A stretch of 39,444 bases of DNA. Origin: Planctomycetota bacterium (GTDB lineage Bacteria > Planctomycetota > Planctomycetia > Planctomycetales > Planctomycetaceae). Where the stretch lies: positions 1 to 39,444 of the forward strand of contig JAFEBR010000747.1 in assembly GCA_018242565.1 (NCBI GenBank), given 5' to 3'. The notes under the pieces were generated by a model, which saw only the letters and a program-made list of their open reading frames with translations, was not told the DNA's origin and searched no databases. The stretch's first letter is position 1. Every line of letters begins with the position of its first letter. This document shows positions 10,849-26,690 of this stretch, one piece after another. Both the position numbers and the translations under genes were made by a program.

Positions 10849-12417
10849 TTATTGGGCCGAGGCGATTTCGATGCGGCGGCGGACGTCGTATTGCAGGCCG
10901 AGAATGAGCGTGAGCACGACGGCGTCGACCATCAGGAACCCCATTTCGAACGAGGTGCCCTGTTGCTGCGCTGTCGAGAGCATCATGATGACGGGTGACC
11001 CACAGCAACTGCTGAAGAACATCCCGGCGGCCATGACGGTCGCTGCGAGAGGGAGCGATCCCCAGCGCACAATCATCGAGAAAAACGCCGTCAGGGTCAT
11101 GAATAATAACAGCAACAATCCATAGAACCAGCGGCTGGGTAAGATCAGACAGAGCCCCAGTTCCGAAAGGCCCGCGGGCCAGATAACACAGCCGGCAAAC
11201 AGCCAGAACAATGCGGGCAGCAACGCGGGCAGGCAGCCGAGCAGTTTGCCGGCGATCATGCGGGAAGGTTTTCCCGGAACCATCGCCAGCAGTGGCAGTG
11301 TGTGTTCGCGCCATTCATCATGAAAGACACGCGACGCATACAGGCAGGCTTCGAACGTCAGCAAGCCGAGCATGCCGAGTGCCACGAATTTCCCGGAATC
11401 AGCCAGCGTGTAGCTGTAGTAACGATCGGCGGCCCACAAGGTCAGCAGGACCAGGATTCCATAGACGACAAACTTCAGAATCTGCGTCTGCAGGCCACCG
11501 GCGACGAAATGGAATTCTTTCCAGGCCAACGGATAGCGGACGGGGCGCGATCGACGATGACGTCCGAGTCCGATGAACCGGGCCGTCAGGTCGGCGCGTG
11601 GTCCCCGCTGGTCTCCCGAATGGCGTGTGAACCGACGAAACCCGATCCATGCCAGGAAAAACAGCACCGCCGCCGTTCCCGTGCAGGTCAGGACTTGAAA
11701 CCCGAAGATATGTCCCGCGAAACCGGTACGCATGATTTCCGAAACTTGCGTCAGAATCGATGCCTGTTGTAATCCGTCGTGAAATGCCTGGATCTGCAGA
11801 TCGACATTCGATTTGGGCTGCACCAGTCCGCTGTTCTGCAGACCGATCTGTGTGACCCAGACGAGAATCGGAGACGCCAGGTACAGGCCAATCAGCACCA
11901 GAGTAATGAATGAAGCTGACCCGCCGCGGCGGCAGATGACCGAGGCCAGCACTCCCATGTTGGCCACAAGCAGCAGATACGCGGCAAGTGACGTGTACGC
12001 GGCCAGGACCTGGTTGACGGTCACGCCACCCAACGTGATAGCCAGCAACGTGAAGGGGATCTGGACCAGCAATAGCAACAGCGTACTTACGAGCCGACTG
12101 GTGGATTTGCCGAACAGAATGCCCAGCGGGTTGATGCCGGCGAGCATGAGCAGACCGAGCGTGTCTTCTTCTTTTTCTTCGGTGATCGCCGTGGCGAAAA
12201 AGCTGACGCCGGCCAGGCTGATCAGTACGACATTCAGGTAGGTCATCGTGGAGAACATCTTGAGGCCCGGCGCGCCCACGAGTCCCCCGACCAGAATCGT
12301 GTAGACCAGGCTGGCAAACACCAGCAGCGCGAAACCGGCCCTGAACAAGTGCGCCCGCAATAGGCGCGCGTCGAGTCGCAGGGCGCGAACCAGCATGGCC
12401 AGGGTTCCGGTCAGCAC
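10849..12417 (-). CDS. ABC-2 type transporter permease, internally duplicated (second module)
   Basis: Integral membrane subunit of an ABC-2 transporter, 522 aa, with about twelve hydrophobic segments. Two coupling-helix-type motifs are present: ITEEKEEDTLGLL (about 79-90) and HDEWREHTLPLLAMVPGK (about 367-383), each followed by a lysine and a hydrophobic segment. The second half opens with YPLAWKEF (about 295-302), which looks like a second ABC-2 N-terminus. The protein therefore appears to be two ABC-2 halves in one chain, able to act as a complete membrane domain. The GTG start overlaps the ATPase stop by one base (TAGTG), implying translational coupling. It is the last gene of the long minus-strand run. 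Transported substrate unknown. Confidence 0.8.
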   Translation of the reverse strand: MLTGTLAMLVRALRLDARLLRAHLFRAGFALLVFASLVYTILVGGLVGAPGLKMFSTMTYLNVVLISLAGVSFFATAITEEKEEDTLGLLMLAGINPLGILFGKSTSRLVSTLLLLLVQIPFTLLAITLGGVTVNQVLAAYTSLAAYLLLVANMGVLASVICRRGGSASFITLVLIGLYLASPILVWVTQIGLQNSGLVQPKSNVDLQIQAFHDGLQQASILTQVSEIMRTGFAGHIFGFQVLTCTGTAAVLFFLAWIGFRRFTRHSGDQRGPRADLTARFIGLGRHRRSRPVRYPLAWKEFHFVAGGLQTQILKFVVYGILVLLTLWAADRYYSYTLADSGKFVALGMLGLLTFEACLYASRVFHDEWREHTLPLLAMVPGKPSRMIAGKLLGCLPALLPALFWLFAGCVIWPAGLSELGLCLILPSRWFYGLLLLLFMTLTAFFSMIVRWGSLPLAATVMAAGMFFSSCCGSPVIMMLSTAQQQGTSFEMGFLMVDAVVLTLILGLQYDVRRRIEIASAQ

Positions 12418-13382
12418 TATTCGAGGCCTCCGTGCGTCAGATCCATGAAGGCCTCGTTGAGATGTCTCCGTTCTTCGGCGAACGATTCAATCGGCACGCC
12501 CAGATCGAGCACCTCGCGTAACAACTGATTGGTATCGGTCGCATCACCGTCAAACGAGACGCGGTATTGGGCTACATCTGAAAGGCGTTCCACCTTGACC
12601 ACGCCGGTCAATGCGCCCAGTCGGCGGTCGAGTTCCGGATACTCCCCGCGGAACCCCACGCGATAGGTAGGGTGTTCGTGAGTATGCGCGAGCAGACCGC
12701 GCATGGAGCCTGTGAACTTGATGCGACCTCCGTCAATGATCGTGACGCTGTCGCAGAGTTCGGCCAGTTCCGAAAGAATGTGCGAGCTGATAAAGATGGT
12801 TTTGCCCATCCGCTGCAGTTCTTTGAGGATCTCCATCAGTTCGATGCGGGCCCGCGGATCGAGTCCCGAGGCGGGTTCGTCGAGCAACAGCAGGTCGGGA
12901 TCACTGACCAGTACCCGCGCCAGGCTCACGCGCTGCTGCATGCCCCGCGACAGGCCGCCGATCAGGTCGTTGGTGCGCGACAGCATGTCGGTAATCACCA
13001 GGACTTCCTGAATGACCCGGTCGCGCTGGGCCGTCGTCATCCCGTAGGCGGACCCGAAGAAATCGAGATACTCATAAACCGACATGCGGCGATACATGCT
13101 GAAATGATCGGGCATAAACCCGATCCGCCGGCGGACCTCCTGGGTCTTCAGCAACACGTCCTGGCCGAAGACTCGAACGCTTCCGGCTTGTGGTTCCAGC
13201 AGCGTGCAGACGATTTTCAGAGTCGTCGTTTTGCCGGCGCCATTCGGCCCGACAAACCCGTGCAGTGAACCGGCCGCAACCTCAAAGCTGGCATTGCGGA
13301 CAGCCCAGCGCTCGCCGAACGACTGGCTCAAATTTCGAATTTCGACGGCAGGGACGTTTGCCGAGGGGGTGGTGTCGTTCAT
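12417..13382 (-). CDS. ABC-2 transporter ATP-binding protein (second module)
   Basis: Cytoplasmic ATPase of the CcmA/NatA type, 321 aa. Walker A is GPNGAGKT (45-52), signature GLSRGMQQRVSLARVL, Walker B LLLLDEPASGLDP, H-loop FISSHIL. The Q-loop position reads FMPDHFSMY, with Asp92 where Gln is usual. A C-terminal extension of about 90 residues follows the ATPase core, as in many drug/polysaccharide-type ABC-2 ATPases. Its ATG overlaps the stop of the upstream 647-aa gene (ATGA) and its stop overlaps the permease start, so the three genes form a coupled unit. It is a paralogue of the ATPase at 21489-22421 (same domain layout and same PD Q-loop). Confidence 0.9.
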   Translation of the reverse strand: MNDTTPSANVPAVEIRNLSQSFGERWAVRNASFEVAAGSLHGFVGPNGAGKTTTLKIVCTLLEPQAGSVRVFGQDVLLKTQEVRRRIGFMPDHFSMYRRMSVYEYLDFFGSAYGMTTAQRDRVIQEVLVITDMLSRTNDLIGGLSRGMQQRVSLARVLVSDPDLLLLDEPASGLDPRARIELMEILKELQRMGKTIFISSHILSELAELCDSVTIIDGGRIKFTGSMRGLLAHTHEHPTYRVGFRGEYPELDRRLGALTGVVKVERLSDVAQYRVSFDGDATDTNQLLREVLDLGVPIESFAEERRHLNEAFMDLTHGGLE

Positions 13383-15322
13383 TTGGTTTCTGCAGGAAAG
13401 ATGTCCAGGCTGTACAGGGTGTATCCGACCTGCTGGCCAAATTGAGTGCTGACGGCCTGCATGTTCGCCGGCATCGGGGCGTAACCCAGCAGACGTATGC
13501 GATCCGGAGGCAGAACGAAGAGTTGCACTTCATTGCCATCCTTCAAATCGAGCGATCGGGCCAGAAGCGCGTAAAAGGTGTCCTTCCAGACGTCGGCTGG
13601 TTTTTCATCGAATGAGTTTCGTCCGAACATGCTGGGAGTCGTGCGGGATTTCTGAAACATCTTCGACTCTTCGTAAAAGCGGTCGACCTGGATGATGGCA
13701 TGCAGCGGACCTTCTTCTTTGACGAGTTCAATCGTCGAACCGCGATCGGCCAGTTTGTACAACCTGCGCCCGCAGACGGCATACAGGTCGGTGAAGTTGG
13801 TGGCGAACTCGCTGCCCTTTTGCAACTTAAGAGCCGTTAAGGCGCGCGCCGGCCGGGGGGTCAGTGCGGTTTCCAGATCGCGCGTTGTGGTGGAAATGAC
13901 CGAGCTCTGGTCGGCAGCGGTCTGGAAGTCTGCGACGGTGACATCGAGGGGACGGCCGGGCAGGATCGACCGATGGGCAAATGGCCGTGATGAAAAGGGA
14001 GGCATATCGACAATCAGGTGCGCATCGGCACCGTTGCGGATCTCGCCATTCACTTTTTCATCGATCTGGCAGGTGGAGTAGATCCGCCCGCTGCCCGGAT
14101 GATTGATGGTATAGTCGCCTCCGTCGACGGCAAACGCGTTGGACCATTGAGTCACATCGAGGGTCGAACCATCCGGCTGCTGACGGGCAATGGCCACCGA
14201 GTGGATGACGGTGACTTCATTGTAACCCCGGCGGCCCACGACCAGGAAAATCACGCTGAACAGACCGATCGCGCCCAGCAGGCTGCCGAACGTGATGCGA
14301 AAATCGCCACCAAACTTATACGCCACGAAGTAGCTGCCTGGAAAAACCGCCGCCAGATAGATCAGACCAAGCAGGAAAATCAGGGCCCAACTGTGTTCGG
14401 GGCTGGACTGGTCCTGCATGCGCTTCAAGAGGGTCCGTTCGGGATCCCACGAAATATGACCGAACTGCATCATGTAGGCATTGTTCATCGGATCGGCACT
14501 GGAGGCTGCGGCTTCGGCCTGTGCTTTTTTGTATTCCAGACGTTCGTCATCGGGGATGTTGCGGACCGTATCGACTTGAATCTTCTGAACAAACGGTTCA
14601 TCGAGTTGTTTGCGCGTGCGTGCGACCCGGGTGATTTCGCCCGACCCCACGCGCTGCACATCGGCCGTTCCATTCAGGACCTCGAGTTCGCCCGTGAATT
14701 CGAAGCCTTTTCCGTCAGGCGTTTTGAGCAGATAGGCACGTCCGCCCCGTTTCAGCCAGTCAAGAAAGGCACGCTGGCGTGCGGCTTCCCAGCGGGGCAC
14801 ATGGTCAAGCACCGCCACCGAGAGGGCATCGGTCGCCGTGCCAAAGGGGGGAAATAGATTCTCGGGAAACCGCTTGATCGCGGTGATGCCGCCAAGTGGT
14901 ACGAGATTGTCGGCGTCGTCATACAGCACCGCCGAGCGCTTGCCGTGTCTCGGGGTAGTAATCTCGGTGCGGTTGGAGCGTCCTTCGCCCCAGGAGACTT
15001 GCCAGGTCTCCCAGTCGGAATTGACGTAGGGGTAGAACTGTATCCAGCGGCTGGTGTATTGCGAGAGGTAGAGTCGTTCCGACAGAACCGTATCGACCTG
15101 TTTTCCCCCCACGAATTTCATCAGACGGACTTCGCCATCAAATGCCGAGGATGTCGGATTATCGATCAACAGGGAAACGATATTGAAGTGCTGCGGCACG
15201 ACCTGGCCATCGAACCCCCAGACGGTCTGCCGGATTTCTACAGCGCCGACCGTTCCCGGTGTGCAGGTGACTGCCAGGGACATCACAGTCAGCAGGAGTG
15301 GAATGCTGCCGCGGGTGGTCAT
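13379..15322 (-). CDS. Secreted/membrane protein of ABC-2 module, GldG-like in position, unknown function
   Basis: Not assigned to a named family. The 647-aa product begins with a signal peptide (hydrophobic to about residue 25, probable cleavage near VGA). It continues with an extracytoplasmic beta-rich region, a segment around 170-200 reading AFLDWLKRGGRAYLL that resembles the end of a class-I amidotransferase-like fold, and two membrane segments at about 311-335 and 343-363, then a further soluble region of about 280 residues. The same layout occurs in the 772-aa protein at 22422-24740, which also immediately precedes an ABC-2 ATPase gene; the two are probably distant paralogues. The position recalls GldG-type auxiliary proteins of GldA/GldF transporters, but I cannot show homology. 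The ATG at 15322 lacks a clear Shine-Dalgarno. Confidence 0.72.
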   Translation of the reverse strand: MTTRGSIPLLLTVMSLAVTCTPGTVGAVEIRQTVWGFDGQVVPQHFNIVSLLIDNPTSSAFDGEVRLMKFVGGKQVDTVLSERLYLSQYTSRWIQFYPYVNSDWETWQVSWGEGRSNRTEITTPRHGKRSAVLYDDADNLVPLGGITAIKRFPENLFPPFGTATDALSVAVLDHVPRWEAARQRAFLDWLKRGGRAYLLKTPDGKGFEFTGELEVLNGTADVQRVGSGEITRVARTRKQLDEPFVQKIQVDTVRNIPDDERLEYKKAQAEAAASSADPMNNAYMMQFGHISWDPERTLLKRMQDQSSPEHSWALIFLLGLIYLAAVFPGSYFVAYKFGGDFRITFGSLLGAIGLFSVIFLVVGRRGYNEVTVIHSVAIARQQPDGSTLDVTQWSNAFAVDGGDYTINHPGSGRIYSTCQIDEKVNGEIRNGADAHLIVDMPPFSSRPFAHRSILPGRPLDVTVADFQTAADQSSVISTTTRDLETALTPRPARALTALKLQKGSEFATNFTDLYAVCGRRLYKLADRGSTIELVKEEGPLHAIIQVDRFYEESKMFQKSRTTPSMFGRNSFDEKPADVWKDTFYALLARSLDLKDGNEVQLFVLPPDRIRLLGYAPMPANMQAVSTQFGQQVGYTLYSLDIFPAETK

Positions 15323-15652
15323 GAGTCATCGAGTGCCAGGAGGGATCTGATTGGATTCGTGTTGCCGGGGGAGATGTCAGGTGATGGCCGTATTCGACAC
15401 CGGAAGCCGGTCATTGGCCGGCCCACCACCCTGCTGCATGATACGGGCTGACGACACGACATCCAACGGCTCAAGAGCAGATCGTGCCCATGGCCGCGCC
15501 GCAGGGGCCCCGGGCACTCGGTCGCTGAGGGAGCCGGTCTGGGAATGGGCGAATCTGGGAATTGACATAAAGTATTTGATCGATCGAGGCTCGGAATTTG
15601 TTTGGCCGGGCCAGGTGCAATACGAATCGAGCGAGTCGGTGACAGGGAACGG
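15323..15652. other. 330-bp gap between the two ABC-2 modules, no gene seen
   Basis: No open frame here has recognisable coding character, and I see no tRNA or hairpin-plus-T-run terminator. The one AT-rich patch is at 15561-15585; on the plus strand it contains TTGACA but no matching -10, and on the minus strand only weak -10-like hexamers. As the only sizeable gap inside the 26-kb run, it is the most likely place for the second module's own promoter, but none can be named. Confidence 0.5.
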
Positions 15653-17509
15653 TCAGGTTTCCCGGGCTTGCGCGGCGGGAAAGATCGGACCATTCGACGG
15701 TTCCAGATCCGAAATCGGGTCGTCAGGCTGGTCGATCGCGCCATCGCGAAAGAAGGCCTTGGGGGCCGCCTGTTTGACCCACCAGCGCAACAGGCCCAGT
15801 GCCGTGCCGTAGAGGACGCAGTTGACAGTGAGCGGGATCCAGGTTTCAAAGATATTGGGCGGTGCTCCCACTTCATTGATGGCAATCAAGGCGAGTGGGC
15901 TGGTGATCATGATGATGGCGGCATCCTGATAAAACTGGGTTCCGCGGCTCAGGGCTTCAATCGGCAGGATGCAGGACAGGATGGGGAGCAAACACCAGCC
16001 TACGATCGCGGCTAAGGATCCCACGATGGCGCGTCCCGGGGATTTCGTTTTCAGCCCGATCAAGAAAGACAGCCAGGCAAACATCGGCAGGTAAATCAGG
16101 GTGGTTGATAATGAAGTTGCCAGGTACAGCGCGACGGCCTGGAAACTGGACTCATTGGGGCCACGTGTGTCGACCATCCCCAGGGCTCTCAGCCAGGTTT
16201 CGAACACAATCAGGGTAAACATGGGAATCATCAGCACACCGATCAGGCGCCAGATGCTGCGGAATTTCTGGCGAACGATTTCATCAGCCGTCAGGGGGGT
16301 GGTACACAGAACTTCCAGGGTCTGGTGTGACCGTTCTCTGGCGACGAGGTTGCTGGCGTGGACAGCCACCATCAACACAGAAATTCCCCAAGTCACAAAA
16401 ACGGCGAGGAGCAGCAGTCCGTGTTGCCGGCCCAGCGAATCGCCGAGCATCATCGCCACGCACAAAAGAGCGATCGGGATCTCCAGTAACAGCAGGAGTC
16501 GCAGCAGGTAGTGAAACTGTCCGAGTGAGCGCTTGGCCGTTTCGCGCCAGGCAATCGGTTCCAGATCGGGAAGTGAGGTCGTATCGCTGATCAGGACGAC
16601 GCCGCGGGTCCAGCGGTTTTTGTTCCAACTGTGAAAGAGACGATCGAGTGCCGCGAAAATCTCGCGCAGTTGGTTGCGCGGCGGCACAAACGCCCGGGGG
16701 ATGAAGTAATACCGAGACAGTCCGAGAAAGACGGCGATGGAAAACAGGATGGGGACCGTCCCCGCCACGGCTGCGAGCAGCGGGTGAGATACTCCCCCGA
16801 CGGCCACGGTCCATTGTCCCGATTCGAAAAACTGCATGGCACCGAAGAAGGGGTAGGCCAGGATCCCGGGAGGGGGGCCGGTGTGGTGTCCCAGCAGCAA
16901 CCAGAGGGCCGCAGGACCAAATAACAACAGCACCCCCAGGAGATACGAGGCGATGAAGGCGCTGGCCGTCGTGCGGAAATAGACCGAGCACATCAGGCCC
17001 AGGGTGGCCATCTGGATGACCGAGATGAACAGCATCCAGATGCCAAACGCCAGGTACTCGGGCGAGATGCCCCCCAGGGTGTAAGAAAAACCGAGCAACG
17101 GCAACGACAACAACAGAAACCCGAATGCCGGGATCAGGCGACTGAGGAGCTTTTCAAAGAGAATCGTCCATGAGCCCAGACGGGTCAGGATCAGTAAGTG
17201 CAGCGAGTCCCGTTCTTTTTCCTGGGTGATGGTACTGCACGTCAGGGCCGGGACGAACGTGTAGATTCCGATAAACTGCAAAGTGGCCAGGGCGTGAAAC
17301 AGGCGTCGCCCCTGCCCCAGGGCGGCGAGAGATTGCGTGTTTACCACCGTGAGTAAATCGCGAAACATCATGATGGCGGCAATAAACAGCAGTGACGCGT
17401 AGACCGTACGGATCACGTACGTGCGTTTCCGGGCCGCCTGTTCGATCAGTTCCTTTTCGAGCAGTGGCAGTCCCCAGCCACGCAGAGTATTGCGGAGGCC
17501 GCTGGTCAT
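15653..17509 (-). CDS. ABC-2 type transporter permease, internally duplicated (tandem copy 3)
   Basis: Integral membrane protein of 618 aa, third in transcription order of three tandem paralogues. It begins with the shared N-terminal block (GLPLLEKELIEQAARKRTY, then VIRTVYASLLF). The first coupling motif is TQEKERDSLHLLILTRLG (about 95-112) and the second ARERSHQTLEVLCTTPLT in the C-terminal half, with an intervening PIAWRETAKRSLGQ that looks like the start of a second ABC-2 half. About twelve hydrophobic segments are visible. The ATG overlaps the preceding gene's stop (ATGA). No ATPase lies directly next to it; the ATPase three genes upstream is the likely partner. It is followed by a 330-bp gap. 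Confidence 0.83.
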   Translation of the reverse strand: MTSGLRNTLRGWGLPLLEKELIEQAARKRTYVIRTVYASLLFIAAIMMFRDLLTVVNTQSLAALGQGRRLFHALATLQFIGIYTFVPALTCSTITQEKERDSLHLLILTRLGSWTILFEKLLSRLIPAFGFLLLSLPLLGFSYTLGGISPEYLAFGIWMLFISVIQMATLGLMCSVYFRTTASAFIASYLLGVLLLFGPAALWLLLGHHTGPPPGILAYPFFGAMQFFESGQWTVAVGGVSHPLLAAVAGTVPILFSIAVFLGLSRYYFIPRAFVPPRNQLREIFAALDRLFHSWNKNRWTRGVVLISDTTSLPDLEPIAWRETAKRSLGQFHYLLRLLLLLEIPIALLCVAMMLGDSLGRQHGLLLLAVFVTWGISVLMVAVHASNLVARERSHQTLEVLCTTPLTADEIVRQKFRSIWRLIGVLMIPMFTLIVFETWLRALGMVDTRGPNESSFQAVALYLATSLSTTLIYLPMFAWLSFLIGLKTKSPGRAIVGSLAAIVGWCLLPILSCILPIEALSRGTQFYQDAAIIMITSPLALIAINEVGAPPNIFETWIPLTVNCVLYGTALGLLRWWVKQAAPKAFFRDGAIDQPDDPISDLEPSNGPIFPAAQARET

Positions 17510-19377
17510 GTCTGCGAATACTCCGGGGAACTCGTCAGGTGAAATTCAGACTTTGTCTGGGGCAGGTCGGTGCCAGGTCGGTCTGTTTGCGGGCATTCCA
17601 GGCGTCCCAGAATGCGTTCGGCCTGAGCATAGGCCAGCCAGCGGAAGAACAGTGTCCAGCCGGCATACCAGGTGAAGTTCAGAATCATGGCCACCCAGGG
17701 GAGATTCGAATAGTAATGCCATTCGTTGGATTCGTTGAGGGCCACGATCGAAGCGGGTGACAACAGGTTGCAGAAAAACCACGGACTGGAAAACGGTGGG
17801 CGGAACAGGATCTCGATAGGCAGCATCACAAAAATCAACGGTCCGATACAGAATCCCAGGATGGTCGCCAGCGACGTGGCGATCGCCCGAGCCTGCGTTT
17901 TCATTCGCAGGCCGATGTAGAACGACAGCCAGGCCAACAGCGGGAGGTAGACCGCAATCGACAACAGCGAACAGGTGAGGTAAACGGCGAGGTCAAAGTC
18001 CACGGGATGGTAGCCCAGCCATTGGGCGCGGGGGTCGGGCATGTGCCAGCGCATCGCGGCAGAAAAACCGAAGAGCGTCACGAAGGGAATGGCCATGACG
18101 GCTACCAGCCGCCAGACCGAGCGGATTTTCTGGCGAATCACTTCATGCGCCGTCAGGGGGGTCGAGGCCAGCACATCCAGAGTCTGGTGTGATCGCTCTC
18201 CGGCGATCAGGCTTGCGGCCTGCACCGAAATCACCAGAATCGCCACGATCCAGACAACCAGCAATAACAACAGCGACCATTCGAAATCAGTGGTGGCGAA
18301 CATCAACATGACGCACAGGGCCGTCATCGGCAGCTCGACCCCCATGAACAACCGGGCCAGATAACGTGTCTGCCCCAGCGATCTCTTGGCCGTTTCCCGC
18401 CAGGCCACGGGCTCCGTATCCGGAAGTCCTGATTCCGTCCCTCCCAGAACGATGCCGCGTGTCATAGGGTTATTGTTCCAGCGTGCAAATACCTGATCCA
18501 GCCGCTGAAAGAATCTCAAGAGAAAATTGCGAGGTTGTACGAAAGCCCGCTTCAGCAGGAACACTCGTGCCAGAATCAGACAGATACCGCACTGAAACAG
18601 GACCAGCACGCTATGGATCGCAACGGGCCAGTAGCTCGTCGTCAGCCCTGTTTCGGTCGCCGAAACAAACTGGCCCAGGCCGAACAGTGGCATCTGGAAT
18701 TCGGCCAGCAGTTCCATACGTGAGGTGGGAAAGGACGCCAACTGATTGATGTCGAAGCCGGTGATAGTCCACAGCAGCAACCATCCGAGTGGCGGGCCCA
18801 GAAACATTACGAGGGTCAGCAGATAAGTCGCAATGAAGGCCGCCACACTGGTGCGGCAGTACGCCGAGCAGCACAAGGCCAGCGCCCCCATCTGCAGGAC
18901 GGCCAGCGTCAGCAGCCAGACCCCCAGAGCGAGTGACGGCAAAGTCAGGCCACCCAGAGTATAAGAAAATGCCAGCAGGGGGAGCGACAGCAGCAGGAAA
19001 TACAGCATCGGAATGACCCGACTGGCCAGCTTTTCGAACAGGATCGTCCACGGTCCCAGGCGGGTCAAGAACAGCAATTGCAGCGAGGCCCGTTCTTTTT
19101 CATGCGTGATGACTCCCGATGTCATCGCCGGCATGAAAAAGTAGATGCCCATAAACTGCAGGCAGCAGAGCATGACAAACAGTTCGCGGCCTTTGCCCAG
19201 CGTGGCCAGCGGGCTCGTGATTCCGGCCGTGAGGGTTTCGTAGAACAGCAGATAGGCCGTGAAGAACAGCAGTGAAGCGTAAACCGTTCGGATGATAAAT
19301 GTGCGTCGACGAGCCGACTGCTCGAGCAGTTCTTTCGCCAGCAGCGGCAGACCGAACTGGTTTAACACGCGTGGCAT
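17506..19377 (-). CDS. ABC-2 type transporter permease, internally duplicated (tandem copy 2)
   Basis: Integral membrane protein of 623 aa. The frame is open to 19611, but the ATG at 19377 aligns with the N-termini of the two sister permeases and removes a hydrophilic leader that lacks their similarity. First coupling motif THEKERASLQLLFLTRLG (about 91-108), second GERSHQTLDVLASTPLT (about 393-409), with PVAWRETAKRSLGQ at about 323-336 marking the second half. Hydrophobic segments surround both motifs. The stop overlaps the next start by ATGA, while 73 bp separate it from the preceding copy. Whether the three copies assemble together or serve different substrates with one ATPase cannot be told from sequence. 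Confidence 0.83.
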   Translation of the reverse strand: MPRVLNQFGLPLLAKELLEQSARRRTFIIRTVYASLLFFTAYLLFYETLTAGITSPLATLGKGRELFVMLCCLQFMGIYFFMPAMTSGVITHEKERASLQLLFLTRLGPWTILFEKLASRVIPMLYFLLLSLPLLAFSYTLGGLTLPSLALGVWLLTLAVLQMGALALCCSAYCRTSVAAFIATYLLTLVMFLGPPLGWLLLWTITGFDINQLASFPTSRMELLAEFQMPLFGLGQFVSATETGLTTSYWPVAIHSVLVLFQCGICLILARVFLLKRAFVQPRNFLLRFFQRLDQVFARWNNNPMTRGIVLGGTESGLPDTEPVAWRETAKRSLGQTRYLARLFMGVELPMTALCVMLMFATTDFEWSLLLLLVVWIVAILVISVQAASLIAGERSHQTLDVLASTPLTAHEVIRQKIRSVWRLVAVMAIPFVTLFGFSAAMRWHMPDPRAQWLGYHPVDFDLAVYLTCSLLSIAVYLPLLAWLSFYIGLRMKTQARAIATSLATILGFCIGPLIFVMLPIEILFRPPFSSPWFFCNLLSPASIVALNESNEWHYYSNLPWVAMILNFTWYAGWTLFFRWLAYAQAERILGRLECPQTDRPGTDLPQTKSEFHLTSSPEYSQT

Positions 19378-19450
19378 CGTGCAGGTAACTCGTTTCGTGA
19401 GGCAGGTCACGACGTGACAGGCCAGCTGTCGACCGTCGTGGCCGGGAACT

Positions 19451-21400
19451 TCAAGGGGCGGCTGATTCCTCGGGCGAATCGGCCAACGGTTCGGGCTGTC
19501 CCTCGGGGGCCAGGGCGAGATCTCCTCGGCGCTCCCCGTTTTCCAGGCGGCCCAGAGAACGATCAATGTGGGACCGGCACAGGTGTCGAACGGCCACCAG
19601 GCAGAGTCCATAGAACGTGAAGTTGAGACTGATGATCAGCCAGGACGGAATCGACCACTCGCGGTACAGGTTCACTTCGTTGACGAACACGATGGTCGCC
19701 GGGCTCAGCAGGGTCGACAGTTCCAGGATGACCTCTCGATCGGGATTACGGCCCGGACCATCCAGGATGATGGCGAGGGGCAGCGAAACCAGGATTAAGG
19801 GGGCAATACACCAGGCGACGACGGCTCCCATGGCACCGATGATGGCCCGTGCTTGAGTCCGCAGTCGCAAGCCGACATAAAACGACACCCAGGCCACCAA
19901 AGGTAAAAATATGGCCATCGAGAGCAACTGGCAGACGAGATACATGCCCGGCTCGAATTTTTCGAACGGGGAGCCTCGATTCGAATACACGACGACCGAA
20001 AGCCGCCAGGCTTTGTACACGAAGATGGTCAGAAAGGGCACAGCCAGCACCAGAATCAGGCGCCACACGCCCACCATTTTTTCGGTCAGGATTTCGCGGC
20101 CCGTCATGGGCGTCGTACAGAGGACATCGAGCGTCTGGTGCGAGCGTTCTCCGGCGATCAGATTTGAGGATTTCACGGAGACCACCAGGATGGCGATCAG
20201 CCACAGCATGCCATGCATGGGGATGCTCACCATTTCGACGAGGTCGTCGATGGAATAGCGTCGCGCATAAATCTCGGCCAGTGCCAACAAGCCACAGACG
20301 GCAATGGTGGGCAGTTCGACAATCAGGAACACACGTTTCAGTCCCGACCAGTTTCCCAGCCAGTGTTTTTCCGTTTCCCGCCAGACGATCGGCCGGTCTT
20401 TGGGCAGGTGTTCATCGTCCGAATGCTGCAGTTCGACGGTTTCGGGACCGAATTCCAGGGGGGTCGCCTCGACGCGCCGACTACGAAAGCGCGGGAGTGA
20501 CGTCGACAGCAGGCCCCGCGCCGGCACAAAGGCGCGGCTGACGAGAAAGCGTTTGGCCAAGGCCAGAAAACCCGCACTCAAACCCAGATTGATGACCGCA
20601 TGGGTCGTGATCGCCACGGTTCCAAAAAAACCGGGCAATTGCGACTGAATGAAATACAACGGCAGCCCGAAACAGGGAAAGACACAGAAATACATTATGC
20701 CGATGGAACCCGGGCCGGCCATACCCCGGAAAATCTGGTCCGGACTGATATCCAGCAGATAGCCAACAATCAGCATCAGCATGAATAGAAAATAAGGACC
20801 GAAATACAGCACAAACATCAACACGTACGACATGACGAACGCGACGACGGTTGAGCGGAAAAAGGCCGACCACATGACGGCGATCGAGCCCGTCTGAATG
20901 ACCGCGACCACCAGCATGAAGACGGCGCTCCAGAGCATCTGCCGCGTGACGCCGCCCAGCACGTAAGCAATGGCCAGTGCCGGCAATGACAAAAGCAGGA
21001 ACCCCAGCATGGGCACAATGCGGCTGAGCAGTTTCTCAAACACAATGGTCCATGGACCCAGGCGTGTCAGAAACAAAAGCTGCAGGCTGTCGCGTTCTTT
21101 TTCCTGGGTAATGACGCTGCAGGTGATCGCCGGCATGAACAGGTAGATGCCGATGAACTGGACCACGACGAGCGTCAACAGGATCTTCTCACCCTGGCCC
21201 AGCACGGCCAGCGGGCTGCGCGAAGTCGCCGAGAATATCTCGAAGAAGAACAGAAACGTAATCAGGAACAGGATGGTCGCGTAGACCACGCGCAAAACGT
21301 AGGTTCGCTTCCGGGCCGACTGCTCGGTCAACTCTTTGGACAACAGCGGCAGACCGCCGTCGCGCAGGGCCTGAACGATTTTCTGGAAGAAGCGGCGCAT
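19451..21400 (-). CDS. ABC-2 type transporter permease, internally duplicated (tandem copy 1)
   Basis: Integral membrane protein of 649 aa, first of the three tandem paralogues and nearest the ATPase gene. ATG 21400 gives MRRFFQKIV and then GLPLLSKELTEQSARKRTY, aligning with the sister proteins; a TTG at 21466 would add 22 residues. First coupling motif TQEKERDSLQLLFLTRLG (about 98-115), second GERSHQTLDVLCTTPMT in the second half, and PIVWRETEKHWLGN marking that half's start. It is slightly longer than the others because of a charged insert between the halves (around VEATPLEFGPETVELQ). The C-terminal tail is Glu/Pro-rich and probably cytoplasmic. Distance to the ATPase stop is 88 bp. Confidence 0.83.
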   Translation of the reverse strand: MRRFFQKIVQALRDGGLPLLSKELTEQSARKRTYVLRVVYATILFLITFLFFFEIFSATSRSPLAVLGQGEKILLTLVVVQFIGIYLFMPAITCSVITQEKERDSLQLLFLTRLGPWTIVFEKLLSRIVPMLGFLLLSLPALAIAYVLGGVTRQMLWSAVFMLVVAVIQTGSIAVMWSAFFRSTVVAFVMSYVLMFVLYFGPYFLFMLMLIVGYLLDISPDQIFRGMAGPGSIGIMYFCVFPCFGLPLYFIQSQLPGFFGTVAITTHAVINLGLSAGFLALAKRFLVSRAFVPARGLLSTSLPRFRSRRVEATPLEFGPETVELQHSDDEHLPKDRPIVWRETEKHWLGNWSGLKRVFLIVELPTIAVCGLLALAEIYARRYSIDDLVEMVSIPMHGMLWLIAILVVSVKSSNLIAGERSHQTLDVLCTTPMTGREILTEKMVGVWRLILVLAVPFLTIFVYKAWRLSVVVYSNRGSPFEKFEPGMYLVCQLLSMAIFLPLVAWVSFYVGLRLRTQARAIIGAMGAVVAWCIAPLILVSLPLAIILDGPGRNPDREVILELSTLLSPATIVFVNEVNLYREWSIPSWLIISLNFTFYGLCLVAVRHLCRSHIDRSLGRLENGERRGDLALAPEGQPEPLADSPEESAAP

Positions 21401-21488
21401 GGAACCCGGGGGGTGAACTGCAGGTGAGATCGAAACCGCGCTGGTTTCGTGAAGCTTCAAACGCAAATCGAGTGTCTGGCAGATGCCG

Positions 21489-22421
21489 TCAGGCGGTCTT
21501 GCCTTCCGTGAGTTTCATGAAGGCCGTTTCCATATCCATGGCCTCGGGCTGGAACATGCGAATGCGTGCCCCGGCCGCCACGAGATGTCCGTGCAGATCT
21601 TCAATTGACGTCTGGTCTTCGTGCAGACGGATCGCGAGGCGATCCACCTGTTCTTCCACTGAGTTGACACCGGGGACCGATTTCAGCCGGGCGACGAGTT
21701 CCGCGGACATGTCGACGACCTGCACATGCACGATGCGCAGCAGGCCCAGATGACGGTAAATGTCAGTCACCGAACCCTGGGCCACCATCTTACCGGCTTC
21801 GACAATGCCAATGCGTGTACACAGTTGCGACAACTCGTGCAGAATATGGCTGGAAATGAGAATGGTCTTACCCATTTCCTTGAGCGCTTTCAGGAGTTCC
21901 CGCATTTCGATGCGGGCACGCGGATCCAGCCCCGAAGCCGGTTCGTCCAGGAGCAGCAGGTCCGGGTCGTGCAGCAGCACGCGCGCCAGCGACAGACGCT
22001 GTTTCATACCACGCGAGAGGGCATCGACCGGAGCGTGCAGTTTGTGGCTGAGGTCGGTCAGTTCCAACACGTCGGTGATGATTGGTTTACGCCGGCTTCT
22101 GTCGATGCGGTAAGCCGCTGCGAAGAAATGCAGGTATTCCTCGACCGTCAGATCTTCATAGACTCCGAAGAAGTCTGGTACGTAACCGATTTTCTCTCGC
22201 ACGGCCTGCGGGTTGTACAGGACGTCGCGCCCAGTCACTTTGACTTTGCCCGTGAAATCGCGCAACAGGGTGGCCAGGACCTTGATCGTTGATGACTTTC
22301 CGGCGCCGTTGGGACCGATGAATCCGAAGACCTCCCCCCGCGGGATCTGCAGTGAAATGCCGCGTACGGCGGCCAGTTGTCCATAACGGACCCACAGGTT
22401 TTCGACATCGACGACAAGCAT
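21489..22421 (-). CDS. ABC-2 transporter ATP-binding protein (first module)
   Basis: Cytoplasmic ATPase, 310 aa, predicted to energise the tandem ABC-2 permeases downstream. Walker A GPNGAGKS (36-43), signature ALSRGMKQRLSLARVLL, Walker B LLLLDEPASGLDP, H-loop LISSHIL. As in its paralogue at 12417-13382, the Q-loop reads VPDFFGVY, with Asp83 in place of Gln. A C-terminal domain of about 90 residues follows the core. The ATG at 22421 abuts the stop of the 772-aa gene with no gap, so translation is probably coupled. Only one ATPase gene serves three permease genes here. Confidence 0.92.
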   Translation of the reverse strand: MLVVDVENLWVRYGQLAAVRGISLQIPRGEVFGFIGPNGAGKSSTIKVLATLLRDFTGKVKVTGRDVLYNPQAVREKIGYVPDFFGVYEDLTVEEYLHFFAAAYRIDRSRRKPIITDVLELTDLSHKLHAPVDALSRGMKQRLSLARVLLHDPDLLLLDEPASGLDPRARIEMRELLKALKEMGKTILISSHILHELSQLCTRIGIVEAGKMVAQGSVTDIYRHLGLLRIVHVQVVDMSAELVARLKSVPGVNSVEEQVDRLAIRLHEDQTSIEDLHGHLVAAGARIRMFQPEAMDMETAFMKLTEGKTA

Positions 22422-24740
22422 TTATTCACCTTTATGATAGAGTTTGCGGTAGATGTCGACGTCGTCGCGGTCCGCGACGCCAATGACCAGCAGCCACTGA
22501 TCGGGATCGGATGGATCGGCCAGCGACAGGTCTTCGAAGTCCCGGCCGCCGTTCGGCGACGACTGGGAACCCACGGAAAACAGCCCGCCGTGCGGGGCCA
22601 TGCTGATGTCATCGAGAAAACTGGGACGGTTCGGATTTGAATATCCCAGGTACATCCGTTGGGCCGAGATGGGGGAACCGTTGGCATCGACGCCATAGAC
22701 ATCTTCGGCTTGCAGAAAGTCAAAGTTCCTTTGGAGTAAGGCACGCTTTCCGTTGTGATAGATCGCGACATGGGTCTGTGCCCCGAAGAACTGGCTGATG
22801 TCGTTCAGCAGCGTTTGCCGTCCGGGATCCTGCGGGTTGTTGGCCATGTCGTCCGGACGATACGTGGCGGAGTCCGCGTATTTGTTCCAGTCGAACTGGG
22901 GCCCGGCTGGTTCGGTCTCGGTGTTGGCTTTGGAGCGGGGAATGGTGAACCGACGGTTGAGTTGCGGCGTCCACTGTGAGATGAACTGGGTCACGGCATA
23001 TTGCCCCGGAATGCGACCTGTATATCGGGCCATCTGCAGGTTGAGGGGGCGTTCGGCCTGCCCCTGCATCCGCCGGATCTGGGTGTTCTGCCAGAAAGCA
23101 GAACTGAACCGTTGCAGATTCATGTCGGCAAACAGTTCCCGATTCAGTTGTGTGGTCACATCGCGCTCGGAACCCTGAAACAGGACTTCAAAACGGTTGA
23201 GTCTCGCGACCTGGTTGTCGACGCCCATGTCCTGGATCGTGAATGTCCGCCGACGGTCGGTGACCTGCATATACCATTCTGCGAGCCAGACCGTGAATAA
23301 CGTGACGGCGATGGTGACAAAGGGAAATGTGAACCAGGTCCACTTCCGGCGCCTGATCGCACCCAGGGCCAGCCAATCGGTGGGGCCGATCAGGATCACG
23401 TAACCGAACAGGATCAGGCCAATCAGAGACAACGGGACAATCTTCAGCCCCTCGGGCATCAGCCGGGCCACTAATTGATCGCCCGACCGCAAAGGCAAGG
23501 TCGCCAGGGGCATCGCGGTCGGACGTAGCTTGTCATATTCGTCGATATCGGCGGGATTGAATCCGTAGGGTTGACCGGGAGTCGGCGGATTGCCGGCCGC
23601 GGCCGGATCGGCCGCCGGTTTTTTGACCGCCAGCTGAAACTGACCCGTAGCCAGGAACTCATCGCGACGATCGCGCCGCATTTTCCAGAGGTATCCGGCC
23701 GCTTGTCGCAACTCGGTCACCCGAGTGTCTGAAAGGTCGGCCAAGGTTCCCCGAAAGATGGCGACGCGTCCCAGCCCAAAGTGTTTCAGCAGCACGCCGG
23801 GGGCCTCGGCGTCGTACGCATTGCCGGTCAGGCGCCCCGCAGCATCGAGTACAAACCGGGGTTGATCGGGCGGGGCTTGCGCGATCTGGTTGAGAGCGGC
23901 CACATGGTAGTCTTTCAGGACGGCCGTTCCGGGGATCGCACAGAAGCTGCCTCCCGCAGCCACCCAGTCGAGCAGGGCGCGAAGCTGACGTTCGCGCAAG
24001 TCGGCAAAGGCTTCCGCGGCTGTTACGACCATGTCGAAGCCGCAATACCCCAGGGGGTCTTCGGGCAATTCGGCTGTGGCGATGCGTGCGGGAAAGGTCG
24101 TGATCGTGCGGTCTTCGTCGTTGGTGTTCCAGCTTTCCATGCGGAGCTGGTCCAGCAACTTGCTGGCTCCGGGGGGCAGAGAGCTCGACCAGGCGTCACA
24201 AAACGCCACGATGTGGCGCCGCTGAAACTGTTTGATGGAACCATTGGGAATGCCGATACGCCAGGCTCCGATCGATTTGCCATCAACCAGCAGATGGATT
24301 TGGCATTCCGGAGTATCGAAATGTCCCTGGGGATCGATCGGCGGCAGAACTGTGCGAATGAGTTGAGAGCCGGGAGTGATGATGACTCCGTCGACAATGC
24401 CGGTAATCGGTGTATCGCCGTCGAACAAGCCCACCGACAATTGTCCGGTAATGGGAGTCGGAGCTTCGGACTCGACCCGCCAGACGAATGTCATGGGGGC
24501 ATTGGTGCGGATGGGGGGCGATTGGGACGACAGGTCGAGCTTGACCTGTGAGCTCTGGGCCACAGCCCAGGGGCACACGCCGAGCGTCAAGATCAGCGCC
24601 CAGAACACACTGGCCAGGTGCCTCTTCAACGCGGGACGGACCAGGCGGGTGGCAGTCAAAGTCTGCCGGGTGCAGCGGCGGACAAGAGGCCGGTGCCAGC
24701 CTGCGGGGGCCCCGGGTTGGAAACGCAGAAACAGGGACAT
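22422..24740 (-). CDS. Large secreted/membrane protein of ABC-2 module, amidotransferase-like segment, unknown function
   Basis: Not assigned to a named family; 772 aa. A long basic N-region is followed by a hydrophobic core and a probable signal cleavage after AVA (about residue 61). The extracytoplasmic part includes a beta-sandwich-like region (65-170) and, around 235-335, a stretch with RALLDWVAAGGSFCAIPG and FGLGRVAIFRGT that resembles the class-I glutamine-amidotransferase-like fold common in planctomycete membrane proteins; no catalytic Cys-His pair is evident. Two membrane segments lie at about 433-452 and 468-489, with IGPTDWLALGAIRRRKWTW between them. About 280 residues follow, rich in Asn, Gln and Pro. 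Layout and gene position match the 647-aa protein of the second module. It lies 54 bp after the BatA-like gene. Function is inferred only as an accessory to the exporter. Confidence 0.72.
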   Translation of the reverse strand: MSLFLRFQPGAPAGWHRPLVRRCTRQTLTATRLVRPALKRHLASVFWALILTLGVCPWAVAQSSQVKLDLSSQSPPIRTNAPMTFVWRVESEAPTPITGQLSVGLFDGDTPITGIVDGVIITPGSQLIRTVLPPIDPQGHFDTPECQIHLLVDGKSIGAWRIGIPNGSIKQFQRRHIVAFCDAWSSSLPPGASKLLDQLRMESWNTNDEDRTITTFPARIATAELPEDPLGYCGFDMVVTAAEAFADLRERQLRALLDWVAAGGSFCAIPGTAVLKDYHVAALNQIAQAPPDQPRFVLDAAGRLTGNAYDAEAPGVLLKHFGLGRVAIFRGTLADLSDTRVTELRQAAGYLWKMRRDRRDEFLATGQFQLAVKKPAADPAAAGNPPTPGQPYGFNPADIDEYDKLRPTAMPLATLPLRSGDQLVARLMPEGLKIVPLSLIGLILFGYVILIGPTDWLALGAIRRRKWTWFTFPFVTIAVTLFTVWLAEWYMQVTDRRRTFTIQDMGVDNQVARLNRFEVLFQGSERDVTTQLNRELFADMNLQRFSSAFWQNTQIRRMQGQAERPLNLQMARYTGRIPGQYAVTQFISQWTPQLNRRFTIPRSKANTETEPAGPQFDWNKYADSATYRPDDMANNPQDPGRQTLLNDISQFFGAQTHVAIYHNGKRALLQRNFDFLQAEDVYGVDANGSPISAQRMYLGYSNPNRPSFLDDISMAPHGGLFSVGSQSSPNGGRDFEDLSLADPSDPDQWLLVIGVADRDDVDIYRKLYHKGE

Positions 24741-24794: not shown

Positions 24795-26690
24795 TCAGGT
24801 GGCCAGAATGCCTCCGGGACGACGCTGAAAATACCACCATTCCGCCAAGAGTAAGACAAACCCCACGACCGCGAACCAATGCCAGATCGGTCGATCGCTT
24901 TTGAGTAACGTCGACGCGGCGCCGACTTTCAGTTCGCGAAACTGCAACTGGTCAACGGTGCCCAGCGAAGATTCTGCGACCGACAGCAGGCTGACCCCGA
25001 CCGAGGCCAGTTCCGTTCCGCCATCCCGGATGGAGTATCGGCCATTGAGCGGGGCCGAGATGCCGGACAGGGTTCCGTCCACGCTGGATCGCACCTTCGA
25101 CACATTGCCATCAGGTCCCTGCACCTGGTACTCCTTCTCGGGCTGCAAATGCAGCGGAGGGAGAATTCCGGTCTGGTTCGCAATGACTTCCGACAACCCG
25201 GCTCGCTGCTGGGCGAGTTGCACGGAGTTTGAAACCAGAATCGGAAATCCCACGCGAAACGGCAGCGTGGAATGATCGGTATGGAACAGGAAATAATAGA
25301 GCGCCCGCTCGCCCGCTTCTTTGCGGACCAGCAGCGGGCCCGACCGGCCCTGTATCAGGATCTCGTATCCCAGTTCTTCAAAATCGCGATCGCGCACTCC
25401 CTCCAGCGAGACGGGACGATCGGCCAATTGCAGGTCCGTCAGCAGGACATGCTGCAGCAACGGGGCGTTTCGCTGCCAGTCAATCACTTGTCCCACGGCA
25501 TCATCGACGCGGATCAGTTTGGACAAATCATCAGGAACGACACCGATAAAAATAAACGTCTCGGCTTCCAGGTCCAGGTCGGTCTTGGAATCGGTCAGGA
25601 CCAGATCGTAGCTGGCAGCTTTGGAGTCGTCGTCGTCAGAGGGGTACAGCAGGACGTCTTTGATTCCCCGCAGGGCGTGCCGGTACGATTCCAGTTCGGT
25701 CGCGCAATACACCGCCAGAGGTCGGCCCGCCGGCAGGTCGAGCGATGCGACGTTGTCCATGGCGAGGGCATCAAAATCCAGGGGTTTCAATTGAACTTCC
25801 AGGCGTCGGGCGCCCTCGCCTTCGATCGGGAAGACGATTCGTTGCGATTGCCCTGGAGTCAATGAGATCGATTCACTGACCGGATCGCGCCCCGCGGTCT
25901 GCAAAATGACCTCGGCGTTGATCGGCGTTTCGTCGGTATCGCTCTCGCCTTTCGAGCCTTCGATGCGGACAAACACATCCCAGCGGTCGTTGACCCGTCG
26001 GGCGTTGACCGCCGTGATTCCAATGTTGCGACCGGCCGGATCGAGTTTCTGGTAGTTGAGCTGAAACGGGAGTTCAAAATCTATTTCCGGCGGAACATTG
26101 CCGTCGGTGTACAGAACGGCCGTCTCGATGGGAAAGGTGCGGGCCAGCGCCTGCGTCATTCGCAGGGCGTCATCGAGTCGACTGCTGACCTGCGACACCT
26201 GTACCTGCTCGAGGGCATCTCGCAATACCCGCTGATTGTCGGTGAAGTCGGTCAACTGACGGGCGGTTGACGAGACAGAGATCAGGCACAGTCGCTGTTC
26301 AGGCAGCAGGTTATCGATCAGTCGGCGAATTTCTTCTTTCGCCAGATCGAGGCGCGATTTTCCGCCATGGTCGACGGCGGCCATGCTGGCCGAGGTGTCG
26401 ATGAGGACCGGCAGATACTTGGCCCGGTCGGCCCCGCTGGGGAAAAAGGGCTGCATGGCGGCAACCACCAGGCAGAACAGCAGCAGCAGTTGCAGCAGCA
26501 ACAGCAGGTTGCGTTTGAATTTTTGAAACGGTGAGTTGACCCGCTGGTCGTTCAACACGCTGCGCCACAGCGCCAGCGAGGGAATGACATGCCGGGGCCG
26601 CTTCAACTTCAGGAAGTAGAAGATGATCAGTGGGATGAACAGCAGAAACAGCCAGGCCCATTGGCTGGCGATAAACGGCCACCAGGTCAT
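24795..26690 (-). CDS. BatA-like membrane protein with von Willebrand factor A domain
   Basis: Membrane-anchored VWA protein, 631 aa. The N-terminus matches the BatA domain: a first membrane segment (about 9-27), a cytoplasmic LKLKRPRHVIPSLALW stretch, and a second segment (about 61-80). The VWA domain follows at once with a full MIDAS, DTSASM (Asp98, Ser100, Ser102), and VLYTDGN further on. A long extracytoplasmic part leads to a C-terminal membrane segment (IWHWFAVVGFVLLLAEWW). BatA-type proteins work with MoxR ATPases and DUF58 proteins; the precise task is not established. ATG 26690 overlaps the DUF58 stop (ATGA), which decides between it and an in-frame GTG at 26699. The MoxR-DUF58-BatA order is the classical one. 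Confidence 0.87.
   Translation of the reverse strand: MTWWPFIASQWAWLFLLFIPLIIFYFLKLKRPRHVIPSLALWRSVLNDQRVNSPFQKFKRNLLLLLQLLLLFCLVVAAMQPFFPSGADRAKYLPVLIDTSASMAAVDHGGKSRLDLAKEEIRRLIDNLLPEQRLCLISVSSTARQLTDFTDNQRVLRDALEQVQVSQVSSRLDDALRMTQALARTFPIETAVLYTDGNVPPEIDFELPFQLNYQKLDPAGRNIGITAVNARRVNDRWDVFVRIEGSKGESDTDETPINAEVILQTAGRDPVSESISLTPGQSQRIVFPIEGEGARRLEVQLKPLDFDALAMDNVASLDLPAGRPLAVYCATELESYRHALRGIKDVLLYPSDDDDSKAASYDLVLTDSKTDLDLEAETFIFIGVVPDDLSKLIRVDDAVGQVIDWQRNAPLLQHVLLTDLQLADRPVSLEGVRDRDFEELGYEILIQGRSGPLLVRKEAGERALYYFLFHTDHSTLPFRVGFPILVSNSVQLAQQRAGLSEVIANQTGILPPLHLQPEKEYQVQGPDGNVSKVRSSVDGTLSGISAPLNGRYSIRDGGTELASVGVSLLSVAESSLGTVDQLQFRELKVGAASTLLKSDRPIWHWFAVVGFVLLLAEWWYFQRRPGGILAT

Follow-up and report, generated by a model that had tools for sequence, protein, structure and literature searches.

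What are the two large proteins that head a pair of consecutive ABC (ATP-binding cassette) export modules in a planctomycete genome, and how are they related to each other and to the exporters encoded behind them? The modules lie on the minus strand of contig JAFEBR010000747.1 from a Planctomycetota bacterium (assembly GCA_018242565.1; 9.3 Mb in 1252 contigs), and the window, as we call the whole stretch analysed, comprises 39,444 nucleotides of this contig. Module A consists of lead A (772 aa), an ABC ATPase and three fused permeases; module B consists of lead B (647 aa), an ATPase and a single permease (Table 1). The original prediction, made from the letters alone, had described two modules of the same gene order, each headed by a large lead protein, and all eight open reading frames (ORFs) were found on the minus strand where it had placed them. 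It had also suggested that the leads share a layout and form an undescribed accessory family bound to this ABC-2 type, comparable in position to GldG. We conclude that the two leads are probably ancient paralogues belonging to a single planctomycete family of ABC-2 exporter accessory subunits.

The comparison that had been set beforehand as the refuting test, that of the two family profiles, gave a match: profiles built from 25 relatives of lead A and 30 relatives of lead B aligned colinearly in hhalign over 324-358 columns, with a probability of 97% (E 1.2e-10). A lead B profile of only seven sequences (window plus named loci) matched A more weakly (73.4%, E 3e-5), and the 30 lead B sequences matched 19 lead A sequences (window plus named loci) at 95.6%; as background, comparing either lead with 11 further gene families from this region gave 0.1-4.1%. 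With signal and helices removed, the ectodomains still matched at 95.8% (E 8e-9, 165 columns), compared with 0.1% for a reversed profile, and the real score of 67.1 stood against 16.5 for the best of 20 shuffles. The membrane hairpin alone reached 58% over 52 columns (score 24.7 vs 14.5 in the control). Five proteins from other planctomycete families of the class, here the third set, bridge the two leads, matching lead A at 99.8% and lead B at 98.7%. HMMER gave a similar chain: the lead A model matches all 14 third-type ORFs (25-103 bits), the lead B model six of these 14 (19-32 bits), and the third-type model three of 20 lead B ORFs (20-30 bits). By computation, lead A and lead B are homologous via their N-terminal region and, more weakly, via the hairpin.

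Several results weigh against this conclusion. BLASTP between the two leads recovered only an 11-residue stretch (RALLDWVAAGG / RAFLDWLKRGG, E 0.32), the HMMER models of lead A and lead B gave no direct cross-match (0/20 and 0/13 ORFs), and the C-terminal parts of A and B gave no profile match (16.4 vs 16.4 in the control); those of lead B and the third set matched at 41%. Moreover, hhalign shows a rare artefact in which six of 300 column shuffles scored 133-210 with probabilities of 98.5-99.6%; two of these six come from the A-B pair itself (60 shuffles), where they exceed the real score over 9 and 25 columns. Since such shuffles span only 9-25 columns, hhalign scores and probabilities need to be read alongside the column count; the real matches span 165-480 columns, and the hairpin alone 52. 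The same behaviour affects the DUF4350 and DUF7408 comparisons given below, in which the best of 10 shuffles reached 130-137 in five of 21 cases; for four of these five full-length comparisons, the corresponding ectodomain comparison has a normal control, the exception being the fourth set against DUF4350, for which there is none. Taken at face value, the BLASTP, HMMER and shuffle results would favour the view that the A-B resemblance reflects merely shared membrane helices and low-complexity composition. We regard this as highly improbable, because it is contradicted by the helix-free ectodomain match with its reversed and shuffled controls, by the third and fourth lead types, which match both A and B, and by the HMMER chain from A through the third type to B. 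A recent tandem duplication of the module was likewise rejected, given that each lead has relatives of its own across the family and that the two ATPases are 44% identical.

The layout predicted for the two leads, with an N-terminal hydrophobic segment and two mid-chain segments, was borne out, and the order of elements agrees wherever the models are usable. Hydrophobic segments lie at residues 42-60, 434-452 and 469-487 of lead A and at 7-25, 315-333 and 343-361 of lead B, and more than 280 residues follow the two mid-chain helices in both. By simple hydrophobicity, an N-terminal segment is present in 19/25 lead A, 23/30 lead B and 4/5 third-set members, and exactly two internal segments occur in 17/25, 23/30 and 5/5, respectively; of the remaining 15 members, 14 show one internal segment at the threshold used and one lead B shows three. 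The lead A model (19 sequences) has a predicted local distance difference test score (pLDDT) of 75 and a predicted template modelling score (pTM) of 0.79. Its residues 63-169 resemble immunoglobulin (Ig)-like sandwich domains of glycoside hydrolases (Z 11.5, root-mean-square deviation (rmsd) 2.3, 100 aligned), and residues 176-354 resemble the N-terminal domain of IFT52 (5fms_A; Z 9.5, rmsd 3.5, 155 aligned); helices at 437-461 and 465-491 precede a beta-rich tail. The lead B model (seven sequences; pLDDT 61, pTM 0.47) presents an Ig-like domain at 27-128 (Z 10.8, rmsd 2.7, 95 aligned), a hairpin at 312-366 and a beta-rich tail in the same order.

The computed model thus predicts a GIFT-like fold in lead A, a domain named after GldG and IFT52 and proposed as a sugar binder (PMC7226087); the N-terminal domain of IFT52 itself bears the name GIFT (PMC10191852). 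Three points count against too firm a reading of these models. The GIFT label is not exclusive, because the bacterial chains 3soz_A (Z 9.7) and 2gk3_A (Z 9.3) score level with what is a middling IFT52 match. In lead B, residues 141-290 mostly fall below pLDDT 50, too poor for fold comparison, so the refuting condition of different folds was answered only in part, by the Ig domain, the hairpin and the order of elements, which agree between the two models taken separately. Finally, the topology in which both large parts lie outside would follow from hydrophobicity only. A PDB sequence search with the lead A and lead B profiles returned no match at E up to 1, and the absence of PF09822 structures from the VIA structure-match lists for the leads carries no weight. 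Whole-protein Foldseek matches to dextranase, GH2 enzymes, ERAP2 and COPI had TM-scores of at most about 0.3, covered single sandwich domains and were not taken as evidence of enzyme function.

The proposed tie to the ABC-2 type is supported by linkage across many genomes. Among fetched loci, with duplicates merged and three lead A and one lead B genes with less than 600 bp downstream dropped, an ATPase is the next gene in 26/34 lead A, 26/36 lead B and 16/16 third-type distinct genes; five further distinct lead B genes are followed directly by the permease with no ATPase between, and one lead B entry is a frame-broken piece with the remainder of the same gene directly behind it. Against a strict association, 8/34 lead A and 4/36 lead B genes have no module gene directly after them, and the linkage is therefore not obligatory. 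An ATPase A orthologue (68-74% identical) is nonetheless encoded elsewhere in all six genomes with an unlinked lead A (G002, G005, G028, G034, G032, G011), and an ATPase B orthologue (58-62%) in all eight with an ATPase-less lead B (G005, G011, G015, G017, G019, G027, G028, G036); two further ATPase-less lead A genes are L076, in a genome outside this search, and a fragment in the window genome itself. The run vWA-MoxR-DUF58-BatA-leadA-ATPaseA-permease(s)-leadB-ATPaseB-permeaseB recurs outside the window, partly cut by locus ends, in ten loci: L063, L067, L069 (on the same contig as L146), L077, L078, L111, L112, L113, L127 and L128. Directly before lead B lies a module A permease in 16/36 and BatA in 2/36 (one dropped), and directly before the third type module genes lie in 0/14 (two dropped); in L130 and L131 the B module comes directly after BatA. 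As a separate observation, genome G002 has lead A with DUF58-BatA at L109, and ATPase A with a permease before the B module at the distant L129 of the same contig.

Both window ATPases carry Asp in place of the usual Q-loop Gln. The same residue is found in 42/46 ATPases of the class best matched by the A model and in 33/36 of the class best matched by the B model, classes that include some members without a lead; the 19 aligned paralogues of the window genome have Gln in seven, Glu in six, Asp in five (two of them the window ATPases) and Gly in one. A quick IQ-TREE phylogeny of 73 rows, with SH-aLRT (Shimodaira-Hasegawa-like approximate likelihood ratio test) support, combined randomly picked lead-module ATPases with own-genome paralogues and partners of PF09822 proteins. 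The lead-module ATPases and one further ATPase of the window genome (C747) form one clade (99), within which those of lead A (99), lead B (100) and a third-type group (99) are separate; the leads are genetically linked to this one clade. Because the clade splits by lead type, lead type and ATPase type appear to be inherited together. The PF09822-partner ATPases form another clade (99), with L201, one of the four that belong to a second PF09822 type, outside it; a sister relation of the two clades has support of 0.997 in FastTree, is unresolved in the IQ-TREE quick tree and is not claimed. On the permease side, the three of module A are 43-49% identical to one another, and permease B is 28% identical to permease A3 over 387 residues. 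Three tandem fused permeases (15653-21466, minus strand) share a single ATPase in the window; relatives mostly have one, with two in L069 (=L146) and three in L064 (=L145).

That the module was duplicated, as originally described, holds for the window and is too narrow beyond it: there are at least four lead types, and several related modules per genome. The survey upstream of related ATPases that had been suggested uncovered further leads by position. It covered the ORFs before the 34 ATPases most like ATPase A, four of them in the window genome and 30 in ten further genomes (a number of these picked for an unlinked lead A), and found lead A in five cases, the third type in nine, lead B in six, a hairpin ORF silent to the hidden Markov models (HMMs) in five, and something else or nothing in nine, six of these being unlinked ATPase A genes. 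Twelve regions were fetched for a fourth type and gave an upstream ORF in ten (none in L283 and L285); L286 and L287 were set aside for their clear lead A matches, as were L284, with 526 aa and widely spaced helices, and L288, with 151 aa. The six full-length ORFs that remain (L277-L282, five genomes) give profile matches of 96.8% to A, 95.0% to B and 93.7% to the third set, spanning 375-466 columns, and of 0.2-0.9% to five other families, including PF09822 proteins. Since they were chosen by position and match the profiles of A, B and the third set, they are a fourth lead type. HMM matches are weak in L277, L279 and L282 (11-19 bits) and missing in L278, L280 and L281, and Pfam names none of the six (ExsD_C at 0.039 was taken as chance).

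Besides modules A and B, the window genome has a third-type module at C588, its lead cut by the contig end, and at C747 an ATPase of the same clade, flanked by a permease downstream and a hairpin ORF upstream; this ORF, also cut by the contig end, matches lead A as a single sequence at 6.1% only. A further lead A-like C-terminal piece (398 aa; L179, G000:C579) is cut by the contig start and has no module gene after it, and in genome G005 (L141) a B module adjoins a third-type lead and its ATPase in divergent, back-to-back orientation. Lead A was found in 48/59 genomes, outside the family often via the hairpin region only, and lead B in 28/59, all of the same family. Of 294 genomes drawn from the phylum, 124 are matched by the third-type profile and 51 by the lead B profile; six in the lead B group are strong matches (E <1e-90) outside the family. 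The 18 named relatives come from planctomycete assemblies (Planctomycetaceae, Gimesia, Schlesneria, unplaced), one of them labelled only 'bacterium'.

Does this family belong to one already named? Pfam provides no family name for the leads and their relatives, and NCBIfam none for the window leads, which match neither PF09822 (ABC_transp_aux, the GldG family) nor PF14258 (DUF4350) in Pfam at E up to 1, nor PF24157 (DUF7408); VKOR (0.019), MFAP1 (0.14) and pheromone_ipd (0.032) were taken as chance. Weak Pfam matches occur among the relatives: ABC_transp_aux in 2/25 A (best 0.007) and 0/30 B, DUF4350 in 9/25 A (best 7.8e-6) and 4/30 B (best 0.013), IFT52_GIFT in 1/25 A, and in the third set GATase1_like in 2/5 (best 0.0041) and DUF7408 (best 4.4e-4; 17.9 bits vs a cut-off of 27 in member L026); DUF7408 matched 0/25 A and 0/30 B relatives at E up to 0.1. 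We recognised no description of a planctomycete lead family in the open-licence literature, covered mostly by title and abstract start.

The comparison with GldG, a bacterial gliding protein, was made with planctomycete PF09822 sequences (L087 and L104 cut by the locus end). PF09822 matches occur in all 59 genomes searched, in 57 over the cut-off, and in the window genome at C1057 and C154. The long planctomycete PF09822 proteins (about 900 aa) seem to combine an ABC-2 permease and GldG in one chain, matching the window permeases at 52% by profile, and the gene for this apparent fusion is preceded by an ATPase in 15/15 loci fetched (L186-L200). Against 30 of these sequences at full length, the leads reach 5.9% (A, 44 columns), 0.5% (B) and 0.5% (third set); the lead A ectodomain reaches 11.7%, confined to a 44-column stretch at the GATase core, and B less than 1%. 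Leads and GldG share the plan of an anchored protein with an extracytoplasmic GIFT-type domain, predicted here for lead A only (5fms_A), and the company of an ABC-2 ATPase and permease. They differ in that the planctomycete PF09822 protein appears fused to a permease and follows the ATPase, whereas the lead precedes it, and in that the partner ATPases of the leads form a separate clade, not of the GldA type. The likeness in position to GldG that was originally proposed is therefore inexact; a likeness stands for the lead A fold and the ABC-2 link, and not for PF09822 membership. We infer that the leads work like a GldG-type accessory protein; they are not members of PF09822.

By profile, the leads are nearer to DUF4350 and DUF7408 than to PF09822, and lead B is near not even to those. 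DUF4350 matches the ectodomain of A at 73.8%, the third set at 84.8%, the fourth set at 20.9% and B at 3.2%; planctomycete DUF7408-like proteins (L246 of eight loci unused, L239 cut by the locus end) match the third set at 92-93.5% and lead A at 81-87% (ectodomain 87.2%). DUF7408 (PF24157) accordingly shows profile likeness to the third set and lead A and none to B or the fourth set, and the lack of a match of the lead B profile to either kind of protein (1.4-4.7%) counts against the reading of both leads as one accessory family. IFT52 resembles lead A in the fold of its N-terminal GIFT domain (176-354 in the lead A model); it is a ciliary protein not known to have an ABC partner. Archaeal DUF4350 proteins (arCOG01314) are reported to be linked to GldG by HHpred, to adjoin MoxR and vWA genes and to belong to a predicted secretion system (PMC5898192). 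The leads may share with them a flavodoxin-like domain, share the MoxR and vWA neighbours mainly in module A, and differ in having a mid-chain hairpin and a C-terminal part where arCOG01314 has one C-terminal transmembrane (TM) segment. A proper DUF4350 gene lies elsewhere in the window genome, at C89.

The leads are a real and conserved family, apparently undescribed, of anchored proteins linked to exporters, with good support for homology and linkage; their function we infer. We envisage that the signal peptide would be cleaved and that the lead would hang in the membrane by its hairpin, exposing both its Ig and GIFT portion and its C-terminal part on the outside, while the short inter-helix loop would face the ATPase. 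The lead might dock on the permease and hold or recognise exported material, a role with which the sugar binding proposed for GIFT domains would fit, and so couple ATP-driven export to envelope steps, which in module A may be run jointly with the MoxR, DUF58 and BatA-vWA proteins. Through their diverged C-terminal parts, the leads could make cargo or partner specific to each exporter; to name a glycoconjugate or a surface protein as the cargo would be a guess.

Two other accounts of the leads have to be weighed against that of an exporter subunit. They might be mainly part of a MoxR/DUF58/vWA machine for envelope assembly or chaperoning, with the exporter only an operon neighbour, and for lead A the counts are even: BatA/vWA lies directly before it in 26/31 distinct genes (six with less than 900 bp upstream dropped), so that it is as closely tied to BatA/vWA as to its ATPase (26/34). 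L109, L110 and L114 even keep lead A with BatA while ATPase A lies elsewhere, and the archaeal DUF4350 proteins described above (PMC5898192) likewise adjoin MoxR and vWA genes. Yet lead B and the third type, with BatA directly before them in 2/36 and 0/14 genes, keep their ABC partners, and five distinct lead B genes keep the adjoining permease where no ATPase directly follows. We consider this account unlikely. Less likely still, the leads could be receptors or enzymes, their GATase-like domain being catalytic or binding a soluble ligand to which the pump responds. The weak GATase1_like matches of the third set and the prevalence of glycoside hydrolases among the Ig-domain matches would fit; the Ig match, however, is to a sandwich domain and not to a catalytic barrel, and the invariant columns of A and B are mostly Gly, Pro and Trp with few polar residues (a catalytic triad was not sought).

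Going beyond the accessory-subunit reading, we tentatively raise the idea, itself rather doubtful, that these modules constitute an undescribed class of Planctomycetota ABC-2 exporters recognisable by an ATPase with Asp in its Q-loop, by fused permeases and by an accessory protein of Ig-GIFT-hairpin-beta layout. Each cell would then operate several paralogous systems, one of them built into the MoxR/DUF58/vWA machine and joining the archaeal DUF4350-MoxR-vWA arrangement and the GldAFG exporter in one operon, as a new system of envelope export or assembly. The present analysis delimits a protein family that is spread through much of the phylum without a Pfam or, for the window leads, an NCBIfam name, and ties it to one exporter clade. 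It also connects proteins of the GldG/DUF4350 type with a module that could be deleted in culturable planctomycetes, and the presence of several systems per genome with diverged C-terminal parts offers a direct test of the role of GIFT-type accessory proteins in ABC-2 exporters.

Table 1. Genes of the two modules and of the conserved run upstream of them, in window positions.
Feature	Position	Strand	Evidence
Lead A, 772 aa; N-terminal hydrophobic segment, Ig-like 63-169, predicted GIFT/GATase-like 176-354, TM hairpin 437-491, beta-rich C-terminal part	22422..24740	-	ORF, fold, structure match, hydrophobicity
ATPase A, ABC-2 type, Q-loop GYVPD	21489..22421	-	Pfam ABC_tran 1.7e-29, tree
Permease A1, ~12 TM, reads as two fused ABC-2 halves	19451..21466	-	Pfam ABC2_membrane_2 8.5e-13
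Permease A2	17506..19611	-	Below-cut-off Pfam ABC2_membrane matches; 46% identical to A1
Permease A3	15653..17509	-	Below-cut-off Pfam ABC2_membrane matches; 49% identical to A2
Lead B, 647 aa; N-terminal hydrophobic segment, Ig-like 27-128, GATase-like region (by profile), TM hairpin 312-366, beta-rich C-terminal part	13379..15322	-	ORF, fold, structure match, profile match to lead A
ATPase B, Q-loop GFMPD, 44% identical to ATPase A	12417..13382	-	Pfam ABC_tran 3.6e-30
Permease B, ~11 TM, separate subfamily	10849..12417	-	Pfam ABC2_membrane_4 2.7e-9
BatA/vWA protein	24795..26699	-	Pfam BatA + VWA_2
DUF58 protein	26687..27592	-	Pfam DUF58 9.9e-32; conserved order
MoxR-type AAA+ ATPase	27705..28736	-	Pfam AAA_3 2.1e-62, bpMoxR 1.4e-8; conserved order
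vWA protein, 1007 aa, with GATase1-like domain	28824..31847	-	Pfam VWA, GATase1_like; precedes MoxR gene in conserved run

The same kinds of overlap had been described for both modules, which holds only roughly: lead A and ATPase A abut (0 bp), lead B and ATPase B overlap by 4 bp, ATPase B and permease B share 1 bp, and a 22-bp gap separates ATPase A from permease A1. Permeases A2 and A3 share 4 bp, and 330 bp lie between the modules. The overlap of 161 bp between permeases A1 and A2 hinges on the far-upstream start of the ORF at 19611; the real start of A2 likely lies further in, at a later ATG (MPRVLNQF..., by eye), which would abolish it.

Upstream of the modules, the MoxR-type protein exceeds the Pfam cut-off for bpMoxR (34.6 vs 27 bits), the MoxR of MoxR-vWA-beta-propeller ternary systems. 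Beyond the conserved run, a 616-aa ORF (31870-33720, minus strand) fuses an ABC ATPase domain (26-158) to a C-terminal NHL/6-bladed propeller region (458-521), and in L063, L067, L069 and L078 the corresponding position ahead of the gene run is occupied by ORFs with weak ATPase matches. A 533-aa ORF with no Pfam match (33705-35306, minus strand) is kept beside the ABC-NHL ORF in the same four loci.

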